Below, one piece after another: positions 36,014 to 56,530 of a stretch of DNA of 64,000 bases (position 1 is the first letter of the stretch; every line of letters starts with the position of its first letter). The notes beneath the pieces are model-generated. The model was not told the DNA's origin, did no database searches, and saw only the letters and a program-made list of their open reading frames with translations. The DNA lies in the NCBI RefSeq assembly GCF_021764745.1, contig NZ_JAETXX010000006.1, forward strand, positions 1-64,000, written 5' to 3'. Source of the DNA: Joostella atrarenae. GTDB taxonomy: Bacteria > Bacteroidota > Bacteroidia > Flavobacteriales > Flavobacteriaceae. The position numbers and the translations under genes are program-made.

Positions 36014-36276
36014 ATCAGGAAAAGCTAAATTATTTCAATGTGATTTTATCTTTTAATCAATTAAAAATAGGGGACGCAGTAATGTTTGGTGGTTGCGGTG
36101 CAAGTTAGCAAAAATTAAAATTTGGTTATAGTAATTTTTTCTTAGAAAGTAGTATTCAAAAGTAGTAAGAGCTATATGCAGGTATGTGTTTTAGGTGTTT
36201 TACCATGGTAACTATATCTAAAGCCTACTGTAATCCATTTTCCGAGGACATTTATAGATAAATATAGGTTTATAAT
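36014..36276. other. Non-coding spacer upstream of the minisatellite
   Basis: No gene was recognised. It contains a 12-bp palindrome TTACCATGGTAA (36200-36211) and AT-rich sequence. The promoter of the SanA-like gene should lie in its left end. Confidence 0.5.
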
Positions 36277-36781
36277 CCCAATGGATACATCTTCCATCCC
36301 GACGGATACGTGTGGCAACGTATCTGGACACGTCTTTCATCCCAACGGGTACGTATGGTAACGTATCTGGATACGTCTTTCACCCCGACGGATACGTCTT
36401 TCATCCCGACGGATATGTGTGGTAACGTATCTGGACACGTCTTTTACCCCAACAGATGCATATGGAAACGTATCTGGATACGTCTTTTACCCCGACGGAT
36501 ACGTGTGATAACGTATCTGGACACGACTTTCACCCCAACGGATACGTATGGTAACGTATCTGGATACGTCTTTCATCCCGACGGATACGTGTGGTAACGT
36601 ATCTGGACACGTCTTTTACCCCGACGGATACGTGTGGTAGCGTATCTAGATACGTCTTTTACCCCAACGGCTACGTGTGGTAACGTATCTGGATACGTCT
36701 TTCACCCCGACGGATACGTGTGGTAACGTATCTCGACACGTCTTTCAACCCAACATACACGTATGGCAACGTATCTGGATA
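36277..36781. repeat. 43-bp minisatellite, about 11 units with A/B alternation
   Basis: CGTATCT starts at 36319, 36362, 36426, 36469, 36512, 36555, 36598, 36641, 36684, 36727 and 36770. Nine intervals are exactly 43 bp and one is 64 (43 plus a duplicated 21-bp half). Each unit is a 21-bp half (TACGTCTTTCACCCCGACGG...) plus a 22-bp half (TACGTGTGGTAACGTATCTG...). Two unit types alternate: A has GGACACG, CCCAACGG and TATGG; B has GGATACG, CCCGACGG and TGTGG. The period is not a multiple of three, so it does not encode a repeat protein. No constant-repeat/unique-spacer pattern exists, so it is not a CRISPR array. Confidence 0.95.
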
Positions 36782-54765: not shown

Positions 54766-55239
54766 ATGGAACATAGAATAGAAACTATTGATAAGATCGT
54801 ATTAGTGGGGAAGTATTTAGAAATGTCTATTGCTGAAAATAAAACAGCAACCTTATGGGGGAGTTTTATGCCTGAAGCTATTAAGATTAAAAATAGAGTA
54901 GGAGCAGACTATTTTTCTGTGGAAGAATATGACGAAGACTATTTTAAGGAGTTTGTACCTACAAAGAATTTTAAAAAATGGGCGACTGTATGTGTTAGTA
55001 TTGCTGAAGAAGTTCCGCAAGAGTTTGCAACACTTATTGTTCCTAAGGGTAAATATGCTGTGTTTACCTATAAAGGCAAATCATCTGAAGCATTTAAGGC
55101 GTATCAGTATATTTTTGGAGAGTGGCTTTCTTCTACTAAGAATGTATTGGACCACCGTCCTCATTTTGCGATTATGGGAGCGAAGTATAAGAACGACGAC
55201 CCTACTTCCGAAGAAGAAATTTGGATCCCAATTCAGTAA
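54766..55239 (+). CDS. GyrI-like small-molecule-binding domain protein
   Basis: 157 residues. It has the two-repeat beta-alpha-beta fold of GyrI/SHS2 effector domains: VLVGKYLEMSIAENKTATLWGSFMPEA (about 12-38), FKKWATVCVSIAEEVPQEFATLIVPKGKYAVFTYKG (about 68-103), and YIFGEWLSSTKNVLDHRPHFAIMG with the conserved acidic end EEEIWIPI. There is no DNA-binding helix, so it is a stand-alone effector domain as in SbmC. It may bind or detoxify a hydrophobic compound; the ligand is unknown. Confidence 0.88.
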   Translation: MEHRIETIDKIVLVGKYLEMSIAENKTATLWGSFMPEAIKIKNRVGADYFSVEEYDEDYFKEFVPTKNFKKWATVCVSIAEEVPQEFATLIVPKGKYAVFTYKGKSSEAFKAYQYIFGEWLSSTKNVLDHRPHFAIMGAKYKNDDPTSEEEIWIPIQ

Positions 55240-55289
55240 AAATAGTAGCAATCTACCTTTTAAGGCTATCCTCCGCCCAGTGGTAGCAA

Positions 55290-55457
55290 TGCATTACAGT
55301 ATATAAACGCTTCCCCACGCTATGAGTGGGCTTCCCCACAGGTATAAAAGCGTTCCCCACACAGTTGGGATGCTTCCCCACGGGGTATAAAGCCTTCCCC
55401 ACGGTTAGTCTACTGCTCCCCACCGTGGGGAAAAGCAGACTGTATGTGGGGAGAACT
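55290..55457. repeat. 21-bp tandem array, eight units, abutting the stop of an unknown gene
   Basis: TTCCCCAC starts at 55311, 55332, 55353, 55374 and 55395, and CTCCCCAC at 55416: exactly 21 bp apart. A degenerate unit precedes (55290) and another follows (55437-55457). The second half of most units reads GTATAAA-GC (for example at 55342 and 55385). The unit at 55437 ends exactly where the minus-strand stop codon of the 237-residue gene begins (55458). Since 21 is a multiple of three, frames stay open and read as heptad repeats (xxVGKxx on the minus strand), but no gene is inferred. Confidence 0.93.
55407..55441. repeat. Imperfect palindrome at the end of the 21-bp array
   Basis: 55407-55423 and 55425-55441 match as inverted repeats at 14 of 17 positions around C55424, centred on CCCCAC-C-GTGGGG. 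The array motif thus flips orientation here and could fold as a hairpin in the 3' untranslated region of the neighbouring minus-strand gene. Confidence 0.75.
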
Positions 55458-56171
55458 TTAAGAACTTCTATTTCTTTTTTTATGCTTACTAATGTATCCT
55501 TTAAAGCGTTCAGGATTCTTTCTGAATACATATTTTCCGGTATCTCTTATTTCATTTACCGCCTCATAGAGATGTGTATATGCTTGATCTCGGATATGTT
55601 TCTGCTCGCTATTATCTTCAGTAGACTCATTGGCTTTCGCTAGTAAATCTGCCATCTCATCTGAAGTATCTGCGGCAATATCTAGTAATGTTAAGTCGAA
55701 TTTTATCGCCTGAAGCTCCTTTTTGTTTTTCTTTCCAAAGGTTTCCAAATCGCTTAAATCTTGAATCATATCTGGATGCCCATAGCCATCAGAAATTTCG
55801 CTTACACGGTTTATTAAATCCTGCCTGTCTCTATAGGCAAATCTAAAAGCATTAAGCAAATCGTCTCTAAGCTCGTATGCCTGCGGAGATACAAGATCCC
55901 ATTCTTTACGAGCCTCCTCGCGGCCGTAACGTTCTGCTACCCAAAGCGACTGTGCATGGCGTAATGCGCCAGCACGAACGGGGAGATCGTTAACAAAAGT
56001 CTGCCAATCAAGTCCCACACTTTTTAATTCTTTACTATCTTTTTGCAACCAAACATAAAGGTCTTCTGCTTCTTGTAAAAAAATATCTACAGGCATGTTT
56101 GGGGTTTTTACCGCCTCTTGCGGTATGGCTTGCAACAGCGCTAGTTTGGTATCATAGTTTTCTTTGCTCAT
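55458..56171 (-). CDS. Unrecognised 237-residue helical protein beside the 21-bp array
   Basis: No named family was recognised. The protein is predicted almost wholly helical, acidic overall with a basic C-terminus (SKHKKRNRSS), and has no signal or membrane segment, so it is cytoplasmic. Notable blocks are LYVWLQKDSKELKSVGLDW, DLPVRAGALRHAQSLWVAERYGREEARKEW, AFRFAYRDRQDLINRVSEISDGYGHPDMIQDLSDL and RDQAYTHLYEAVNEIRDTGKYVF. Codon use and length look like a real gene. The stop codon lies exactly at the edge of the repeat array, so the array would be transcribed as its 3' untranslated region. A GTTAC-GTAT-GTAAC inverted repeat lies 18 bp before the ATG (56189-56202). I have a vague memory of similar hypothetical proteins in other Bacteroidota. 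Confidence 0.8.
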   Translation of the reverse strand: MSKENYDTKLALLQAIPQEAVKTPNMPVDIFLQEAEDLYVWLQKDSKELKSVGLDWQTFVNDLPVRAGALRHAQSLWVAERYGREEARKEWDLVSPQAYELRDDLLNAFRFAYRDRQDLINRVSEISDGYGHPDMIQDLSDLETFGKKNKKELQAIKFDLTLLDIAADTSDEMADLLAKANESTEDNSEQKHIRDQAYTHLYEAVNEIRDTGKYVFRKNPERFKGYISKHKKRNRSS

Positions 56172-56530
56172 ATATATAAGATGTTTTGGTTACGTATGTA
56201 ACGCCTTTAAATAGCGGGTTTTTTAAGAATGCTATTTATAATGCGGGGTAATGGTGTAAAAGTGATACCGTAAAAGACAACCGCCCATTTGCTATTTAAT
56301 TAATGGTATTGCCTTCCTTTTTATTGATGTGTGATGTTGTAAAGTTGTGCTTTTAGCTTTGGTGTGTGTTGTTGTGAGGTTGTTACGATGTAATCTTTTA
56401 TACCAAAGCGGAGCAAAAAATTATATTTACTATAAATATATGTATATTTTCTATATAAAATATAAAGTCTTGTAAATGAATTATTTCTGAAGTTGTTAAA
56501 GAGTGGGAGTAGGAGGGCTAGATAAAGCTA
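56172..56530. other. 359-bp intergenic interval
   Basis: It contains the GTTAC/GTAAC inverted repeat (56189-56202), G/T-rich stretches and an AT-rich block near 56430-56465. No gene, terminator or consensus promoter was recognised. Confidence 0.5.

Follow-up and report, generated by a model that had tools for sequence, protein, structure and literature searches.

Mirrored 21-bp repeat arrays beside genes for small proteins: a putative chromosomal element of Bacteroidota

On the boldest reading of the evidence, which we consider slightly more likely than not, the chromosomes of Bacteroidota carry a class of self-contained elements that pair small proteins, from two or more unrelated families, with arrays of repeat units exactly two helical turns long. 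The arrays are often mirrored and occur both in cis and in trans, and their cores would be recognised in a lineage-specific, orthogonal manner. No description of such a gene-array system was found in the open-access literature, which was searched in part. The proposal builds directly on the linkage of gene and array in cis, the exact period, the common phase of the mirrored arrays, the excess of the same-genome motif in arrays that lack the gene, and the correlation between motif and protein.

The element was found in a 64,000-nucleotide stretch of DNA from Joostella atrarenae, here called the window. The original prediction for this stretch was that a gene and the repeats next to it form a candidate new system, which is supported as an association in cis and is extended here by arrays in trans and by a second protein family. 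Strand, mirror symmetry and the exactness of the 21-bp step were absent from that prediction, and the mirrored arrays, the orphan arrays (arrays with no adjoining homologous gene) with their motif-protein tracking, and the second family go beyond it.

The gene and the array in the window

The gene (Table 1) begins with ATG, encodes 237 aa and has as neighbours a gene for an endonuclease-I family protein upstream and one for a GyrI-like protein downstream. It is the sole family-1 gene in its genome of 4 Mb. The product had been thought to belong to no family that could be named, and profile, sequence and structure searches indeed gave no significant match to a known family. Specifically, there was none for the 237-aa protein in Pfam, NCBIfam, PHROGs, PADLOC or PDB sequences, and the best Pfam E-value among the family-1 homologues (0.0045, families being listed for 12 of them) is not significant. 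No match to the protein was found among 72,556 plasmid records or in phage records, and family 1 gave nothing significant in viral contigs. The AlphaFold model predicts helices throughout, as had been anticipated, at middling confidence (mean pLDDT 70.6, pTM 0.52; residues 1–28 and 213–237 mostly below pLDDT 50). Foldseek with this model returned nothing at E ≤ 0.001, and the matches from Foldseek and VIA-align are generic, common helical arrangements.

The conserved-looking blocks quoted in the original prediction are present in the product and parts of them are invariant across 12 aligned family-1 sequences, in which the invariant residues include D62, L63, P64, R66, A69, R71, Q74 and W77 as well as D134, Q137, D138, L139, R194, D195, A197 and Y198. 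The basic C-terminal tail is equally evident, with a net charge of +9 over the last 30 residues of a protein whose overall pI is 5.4. Of 16 pairs of homologues, 14 gave a value for dN/dS, which was 0.03–0.16 in these (dS exceeded 1.5 in two of the 14), and on this ground the product is under purifying selection. No DNA-binding domain was recognised in the protein or its homologues by Pfam or NCBIfam. The basic tail, the conserved charged residues and the purifying selection would fit a nucleic-acid-binding protein and are no proof of one.

Table 1. Positions in the window of the gene, the array and its centre of symmetry
Feature	Positions	Strand	Basis
Mirrored 21-bp array, eight cores	55298..55452	both	exact positions, score, z, best lag 21, linkage in homologues
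Dyad (hinge) TCCCCAC-C-GTGGGGA, centre 55424	55417..55431		core phase
Family-1 gene	55458..56171	minus	open reading frame, homologues, purifying selection, no known family

The array has six GTGGGGA cores on the minus strand, seen on the plus strand as TCCCCAC starting at 55312, 55333, 55354, 55375, 55396 and 55417, and two in plus-strand orientation, which start at 55425 and 55446 and are again spaced by 21 bp. The eight cores thus span 55312–55452, six in one direction and two in the opposite one with the dyad between them. Measured from first G to first G, opposite cores are offset by a phase of 10 (mod 21), which is also the value seen most often in other mirrored arrays. Five bases separate the outermost core from the stop codon, i.e., gene and phased array are in immediate contact as predicted. 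The array score of 20.0 (z = 18.7, best lag 21) was reached by none of 100 shuffles, and among 424 overlapping segments of the 64 kb a score above 13.5 occurred only over this array and over one near 36.3 kb. Rfam gave no match in 55200–56400, and a search for the array DNA in plasmids gave nothing significant.

The array near 36.3 kb (36275–36781) is separate. It consists of about 12 similar 43-bp units with the cores GGATACGT and ACGTATC, its best single lag is 43 and its steps alternate near 21 and 22. It adjoins no family-1 gene, and family 2 (see below) is without a match in this genome. Its unit length recalls that of sopC of the F plasmid. The window also has a 408-bp unit repeated twice at 551–1351, with 94% matches.

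Linkage of gene and array in homologues

Homologues were gathered by protein alone. Family 1 gave four matches among 198 relatives (three of them within the seven genus genomes listed, own genome included), two among 397 genomes of the family sample (own genome included) and one, the own genome, among 395 of the phylum sample; a scan of named species genomes gave 10 loci. In the Aquimarina group 23 of 52 genomes carry the family, two of these with fragments only, and there are up to four matches per genome. Removal of copies with identical downstream DNA reduced 65 loci to 52. Arrays were then scored with 8-mer cores tolerating mismatches at lags of 20–22 and z > 4, a test that replaced a too crude exact 6-mer test and that misses AT-rich arrays.

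An array was present in the 450 bp past the stop codon at 41 of 51 loci, a number that includes a locus with a 7-bp repeat (L044) and three broken gene copies. The corresponding counts in control regions were 2/52 for the 450 bp upstream, 0/47 at 700–1150 bp downstream and 0/47 for the first 450 bp of the gene. The linked arrays start at a median of 43 bp past the stop codon (40 arrays). Inspection of homologues for adjacent repeats had been named beforehand as the check on the original prediction, and a 21-bp array lies beside 37 of 45 intact homologues, the other eight having none by the 8-mer test. Since the genomes are related these locus counts are not independent, and the fairest unit is the distinct context, without flank sharing by blastn. 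An array-positive copy occurs in 29 of 32 such contexts (30 of 33 by tblastx), so gene and array stay together in many places and not in one old neighbourhood.

Three copies counted as array-negative (L028, L029, and L032) look as if they have AT-rich degenerate arrays with the core CACCAT, and L034, which shares their context, has an array with z 10.3. At L044 a 7-bp tandem repeat, GTTGATG, takes the place of the 21-bp array at about 4–150 downstream, 7 being a third of 21; this locus was scored negative in the count of 37 of 45, yet it is among the 41 arrays of the lag test below. On the other side of the gene, L040, L043, L044, and L051 have a dyad CAGTTTC-n5-8-GAAACTG with a TATCATTG-like box behind it, and close variants occur in other Aquimarina copies. 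A loose test for the dyad was positive in 23 of 49 copies. Dyad and box are perhaps operator and promoter. By eye the dyad is absent from the copy in the window.

Occurrence of the pair in so many contexts is also what a mobile element would give, and mobility is the main alternative use of the gene-array unit. Gene plus array would then be the autonomous form and the orphan arrays the non-autonomous one, as REPINs are to RAYT, the array being the site of the mobilising protein. We regard this as rather improbable. A block of about 1 kb that starts about 140 bp ahead of the gene and extends into the array is shared at 92% identity by L008 and L010, without collinear matches past the array. It does speak for mobility, as do the patchy distribution and the multiple matches in the Aquimarina group, the orphan arrays in the same genomes, and two decayed genes (L052 and L064) of which only the C-terminal part matches and which keep long regular 21-bp arrays, with about 20 cores in L064. 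The duplication of L045/L055 along with an adjoining coding segment, on the other hand, looks like ordinary recombination, no target-site duplication was established from the copies and flanks compared, and Pfam and NCBIfam gave no transposase or nuclease domain. A search for an empty site with the flank DNA of L010 found the syntenic place in G852 and otherwise short matches.

Exactness of the step and mirror symmetry

When single lags from 9 to 30 were tested, 21 was the best in 38 of 41 arrays. The mean lag score was 15.3 at 21, 5.95 at 20, 5.22 at 22, and 9.9 at the harmonic of 42; as the arrays had been preselected with lags of 20–22, the informative part is the contrast of 21 with 20 and 22. 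Steps between neighbouring cores were 21 bp in 228 cases, 20 bp in 18 and 22 bp in three, some sites being tallied on both strands where the core is palindromic. The consensus unit, from 281 units of 31 loci anchored on GG, is roughly TGCSGGGA with an AT-richer, weakly conserved remainder, the conservation of GG being partly built in because units were anchored on GGA or GGG. The arrays often alternate two unit types, as seen in the 42-bp harmonic.

As 21 nt equal seven codons, the array could in principle encode a heptad-repeat peptide. At least one frame is open throughout in 25 of 37 arrays, that of the window included, against 14.1 expected from shuffles. This excess is attributed to the repeat itself, since a 21-nt unit repeats its frames too, and 12 of the 37 arrays have no open frame at all. 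A coding heptad repeat was set aside because the arrays have no common frame or strand, and it is scarcely credible.

Cores occur on both strands in 20 of the 31 linked arrays that could be anchored and in one orientation only in the other 11; no GG anchor is present in nine of the 40 linked arrays, and the mirror test covered 20 of 28 orphan arrays. In the mirrored arrays the C-rich orientation precedes the G-rich one almost without exception (19 of 20 linked, 14 of 14 orphan), and the hinge has phase 10 (mod 21) in 13 of the 20 linked and 10 of the 14 orphan arrays. Of the other phases (7/20 linked, 4/14 orphan), 8 or 9 was found in four linked arrays, 3 in three linked and two orphan arrays, and 2 and 13 in one orphan array each. 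For phase 3 both strands match at one place, because the core contains the self-palindrome CCGGG.

Folding was compared on the two strands. The excess over shuffles is equal on them (mean z −2.97 sense, −3.04 antisense and −0.66 control), which palindromic DNA would be expected to show, and a fold specific to one RNA strand was set aside. By raw energy the sense strand folds slightly more stably than the antisense strand (27 of 40 loci, Wilcoxon p 0.044), and in some loci the hinge is a real hairpin, as in L039 with 27 of 30 pairs Watson-Crick; both the sense-strand bias and hinge hairpins of this type would suit RNA. A mean z of about −3, hinge hairpins near the stop codon and T runs seen by eye in L004 and L012 are what could be expected of a structural 3' element, i.e., a terminator or mRNA-stability hairpin that was multiplied by slippage and has no specific partner. 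This is very unlikely as an account of the whole, for it leaves unexplained the strict 21-bp lattice, arrays of at least 20 units, gene-less arrays with a shared core and the link to a second family.

It is likewise conceivable, if unlikely, that the system acts at the level of RNA in the manner of TIGR-Tas, in which case the transcript of the array would be processed to RNAs of 21 or 42 nt, to be bound by the helical protein and used as guides or regulators. TIGR-Tas, in the portions of the report available (PMC12045711), resembles family 1 in that a single helical protein stands beside an array of short alternating repeats that are conserved within a locus and divergent between loci, and solo-domain effectors are a further point of likeness. 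The same portions describe a Nop domain, 8–12-nt repeats, 9-nt spacers (with exceptions up to 12 nt), a 36-nt unit and processed RNA, and hosts that are mostly phages, archaeal viruses and parasitic bacteria (PMC12045711). Here the step is 21 with a harmonic at 42, and not 18/36, about 13 nt lie between 8-nt cores, and the arrays are in bacterial genomes, show dyad mirror symmetry at many loci and have orphan counterparts in trans. No Nop domain was found by sequence search in Pfam (E ≤ 1), in the families of 12 homologues or in PDB sequences (E ≤ 10). The explanation is kept because of the alternating units, the locus-specific cores, the folding energy of the sense strand and the orientation, the G-rich strand being the majority sense strand at 26 of 31 loci in arrays that start close behind the stop codon. 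It is weakened by the mirrored arrays, in which part of the units would be antisense, by 'spacers' that are near-identical and not diverse in L046, L051, L103, and L119, by the folding excess, which is not strand-specific, and by the negative Rfam search.

Orphan arrays and the correlation of motif with protein

The genome of the window has a second array (L065, on contig C1) with the same GTGGGGAA core and a dyad of its own, and no homologous gene adjoins it. Motif searches found gene-less arrays in other genomes too, away from the places of family-1 genes; the open reading frames around 16 of them are diverse and include no match to family 1. Gene-less clusters at multiples of about 21 bp were seen in 12 of 20 Aquimarina-group genomes that have the gene and in none of 15 that lack it (Fisher p 1.8e-4), a count made by eye for the motif of one clade among the matches listed. 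The scan covered 37 genomes, with G854, G863, and part of G849 outside the count.

For the 25 orphan arrays in genomes that also have a usable linked array, the best match within the own genome had a mean rank of 5.4 among 39, against 15.1 expected, and this was equalled in none of 5000 draws; it ranked first for eight of them. Clear pairs of orphan and linked array are L094/L058, L095/L031, L096/L051, L080/L059, and L065 with the array of the window, and clear failures are L101 (22nd), L069 (14th), and L067, L070, and L108 (12th). For L069, L072, L076, L077, L097, and L106 the unit model seems to describe a different motif. The arrays among these whose own genome has a linked array were retained in the rank statistic, in which the ranks of L076 and L097 rest on tied floor scores. 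The more alike two proteins are, the more alike are the units of their arrays (33 linked arrays, Mantel rho 0.66; none of 2000 permutations reached it, the largest giving 0.41). Copies with divergent proteins in the same genome have unlike units, so that the four copies in G850 have four different cores. Part of the protein-motif correlation arises from co-inheritance and linkage alone. Evidence free of linkage comes from the orphan arrays, and it is compatible with simple duplication, since these arrays could be duplicates of long standing in which just the core has been retained.

These arrays bear on mobility as well. The RAYT gene carries its own repeat and encodes a HUH (Y1) transposase, and REPINs are high-copy repeats, each made up of two short palindromes. 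Gene-less repeat copies elsewhere in the genome link REPIN/RAYT, as far as the available text goes (PMC3116915), with family 1, where gene-less copies of the gene's own repeat are seen as a tendency of the whole set and in clear single cases. The difference is that the arrays here are phased and that the motifs used for searching brought up few orphan arrays in any one genome, and this low number also counts against a mobile element. Flanking genes are common to orphan arrays of different genomes (L067/L068, L069/L080, and L074/L079), so these arrays seem to have been stationary for long. No match to a HUH (Y1) or any other transposase was found for the 237-aa protein in Pfam, NCBIfam or PHROGs.

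Arrays were also seen in genomes where no family-1 gene was found (L107 in G873 and L111 in G003), and no partner gene was detected for either. In G872, perfect 21-bp repeats of GGGACGGTACAAAACCTGCGC occur near contig ends (L106 on C66, and on C155); they perhaps reflect a recent expansion that broke the assembly.

A second protein family

Searches with four GGGA units also matched arrays in G002 and G003, genomes without a family-1 match. The arrays L103, L110, and L112 follow a different gene, which encodes 239–252 aa with ETGHA or ETGNA near the start. This family 2, which we take to be widespread in Bacteroidetes and assume to be helical, has no match above the cut-off in Pfam or NCBIfam (best E 0.0007) and only weak scores in PADLOC, and the profiles of the two families do not align.

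A search of 395 phylum genomes with the protein gave nine credible copies in eight genomes, after exclusion of six rows of 20–24 bits (open reading frames of 315–376 aa, glycosyltransferase-like by eye). A 21-bp array lies downstream in four of the nine and upstream in one, with z from 13.8 to 43, and none was counted in the other four, an AT-rich periodic signal upstream of L122 (z 9.1) being left uncounted. The upstream case is L120, where the core is CATCGCTA or a shift of it and z is 43. Lag 21 was the best in all eight family-2 arrays tested, the three discovery cases included, and two copies on IMG/VR contigs have arrays with z 31 and 14, again at lag 21. By eye, one pair of alternating units recurs in the family-2 array of G006 and in three gene-less arrays of that genome. 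The exact 21-bp layout in a second family that cannot be aligned with the first counts for the recognition of the array as DNA.

Discussion

Recognition of double-stranded DNA by an oligomer is favoured because of the two-turn period, the common phase of the dyad and the strand-equal folding excess, and we give somewhat more credence than not to a model in which the oligomer recognises its cognate core, assembles from the dyad with a unit for every two turns of the helix, and does so both in cis and in trans. Gene and array would be two parts of one element, and the protein or an oligomer of it would recognise a short, usually GC-rich core in the double helix. A core every 21 bp, i.e., every two turns of B-DNA, would place all cores of a half-array on one side of the helix. 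In a mirrored array the halves diverge from a central palindrome in a common phase, so that the dyad would accommodate a symmetric dimer, with additional subunits aligned outwards from it. The action of the protein would extend to gene-less arrays, which tend to share its core, and as the core follows the lineage of the protein, copies within a genome would be orthogonal. It is tempting to speculate that the most likely outcome is bridging or organisation of the DNA of the few arrays in a genome together with autoregulation of a self-maintaining cassette, and this is our first choice of role. Against the DNA model stand the arrays without a family-1 gene, the other hinge phases, the arrays of one orientation and the homologues without array, together with the 17 of 25 orphan arrays that do not rank their own genome first, the negative search for a DNA-binding domain, and the sense-strand energy and hinge hairpins that would suit RNA.

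Several known systems resemble the element in part. Iteron replicons and the partition sites parC and sopC are protein-binding arrays with steps of nearly whole turns beside the gene of the binding protein. The arrays described here differ from them in being mirrored and in having variable sequence between the cores, and the 237-aa protein has no Rep or Par domain in Pfam or NCBIfam. Type III toxin-antitoxin systems of the ToxIN kind have an endoribonuclease toxin and an array of RNA repeats upstream, whereas in family 1 the array is downstream, and no toxin family matched the protein in Pfam, NCBIfam or PADLOC. The BrickBuilt MITE of Porphyromonas gingivalis, in the available part of its description (PMC4596501), likewise has tandem repeats of comparable unit size lying between genes in a Bacteroidetes genome. 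Its unit is 23 nt, it has a leader, a tail and terminal inverted repeats resembling those of IS elements, and it occurs in 19 copies in one strain, that part mentioning no dedicated protein (PMC4596501).

If the proposal is true, two protein families without annotation would gain a partner that can be tested, and an intergenic repeat of Bacteroidota that would pass for junk could be recognised as an element. Strong predictions for footprinting and structure follow from the helix-exact step and the dyad. A motif that tracks the lineage of the protein would moreover offer sets of possibly orthogonal protein-DNA pairs, and the effects of phased protein arrays on a bacterial chromosome could be studied in a system that occurs in nature.
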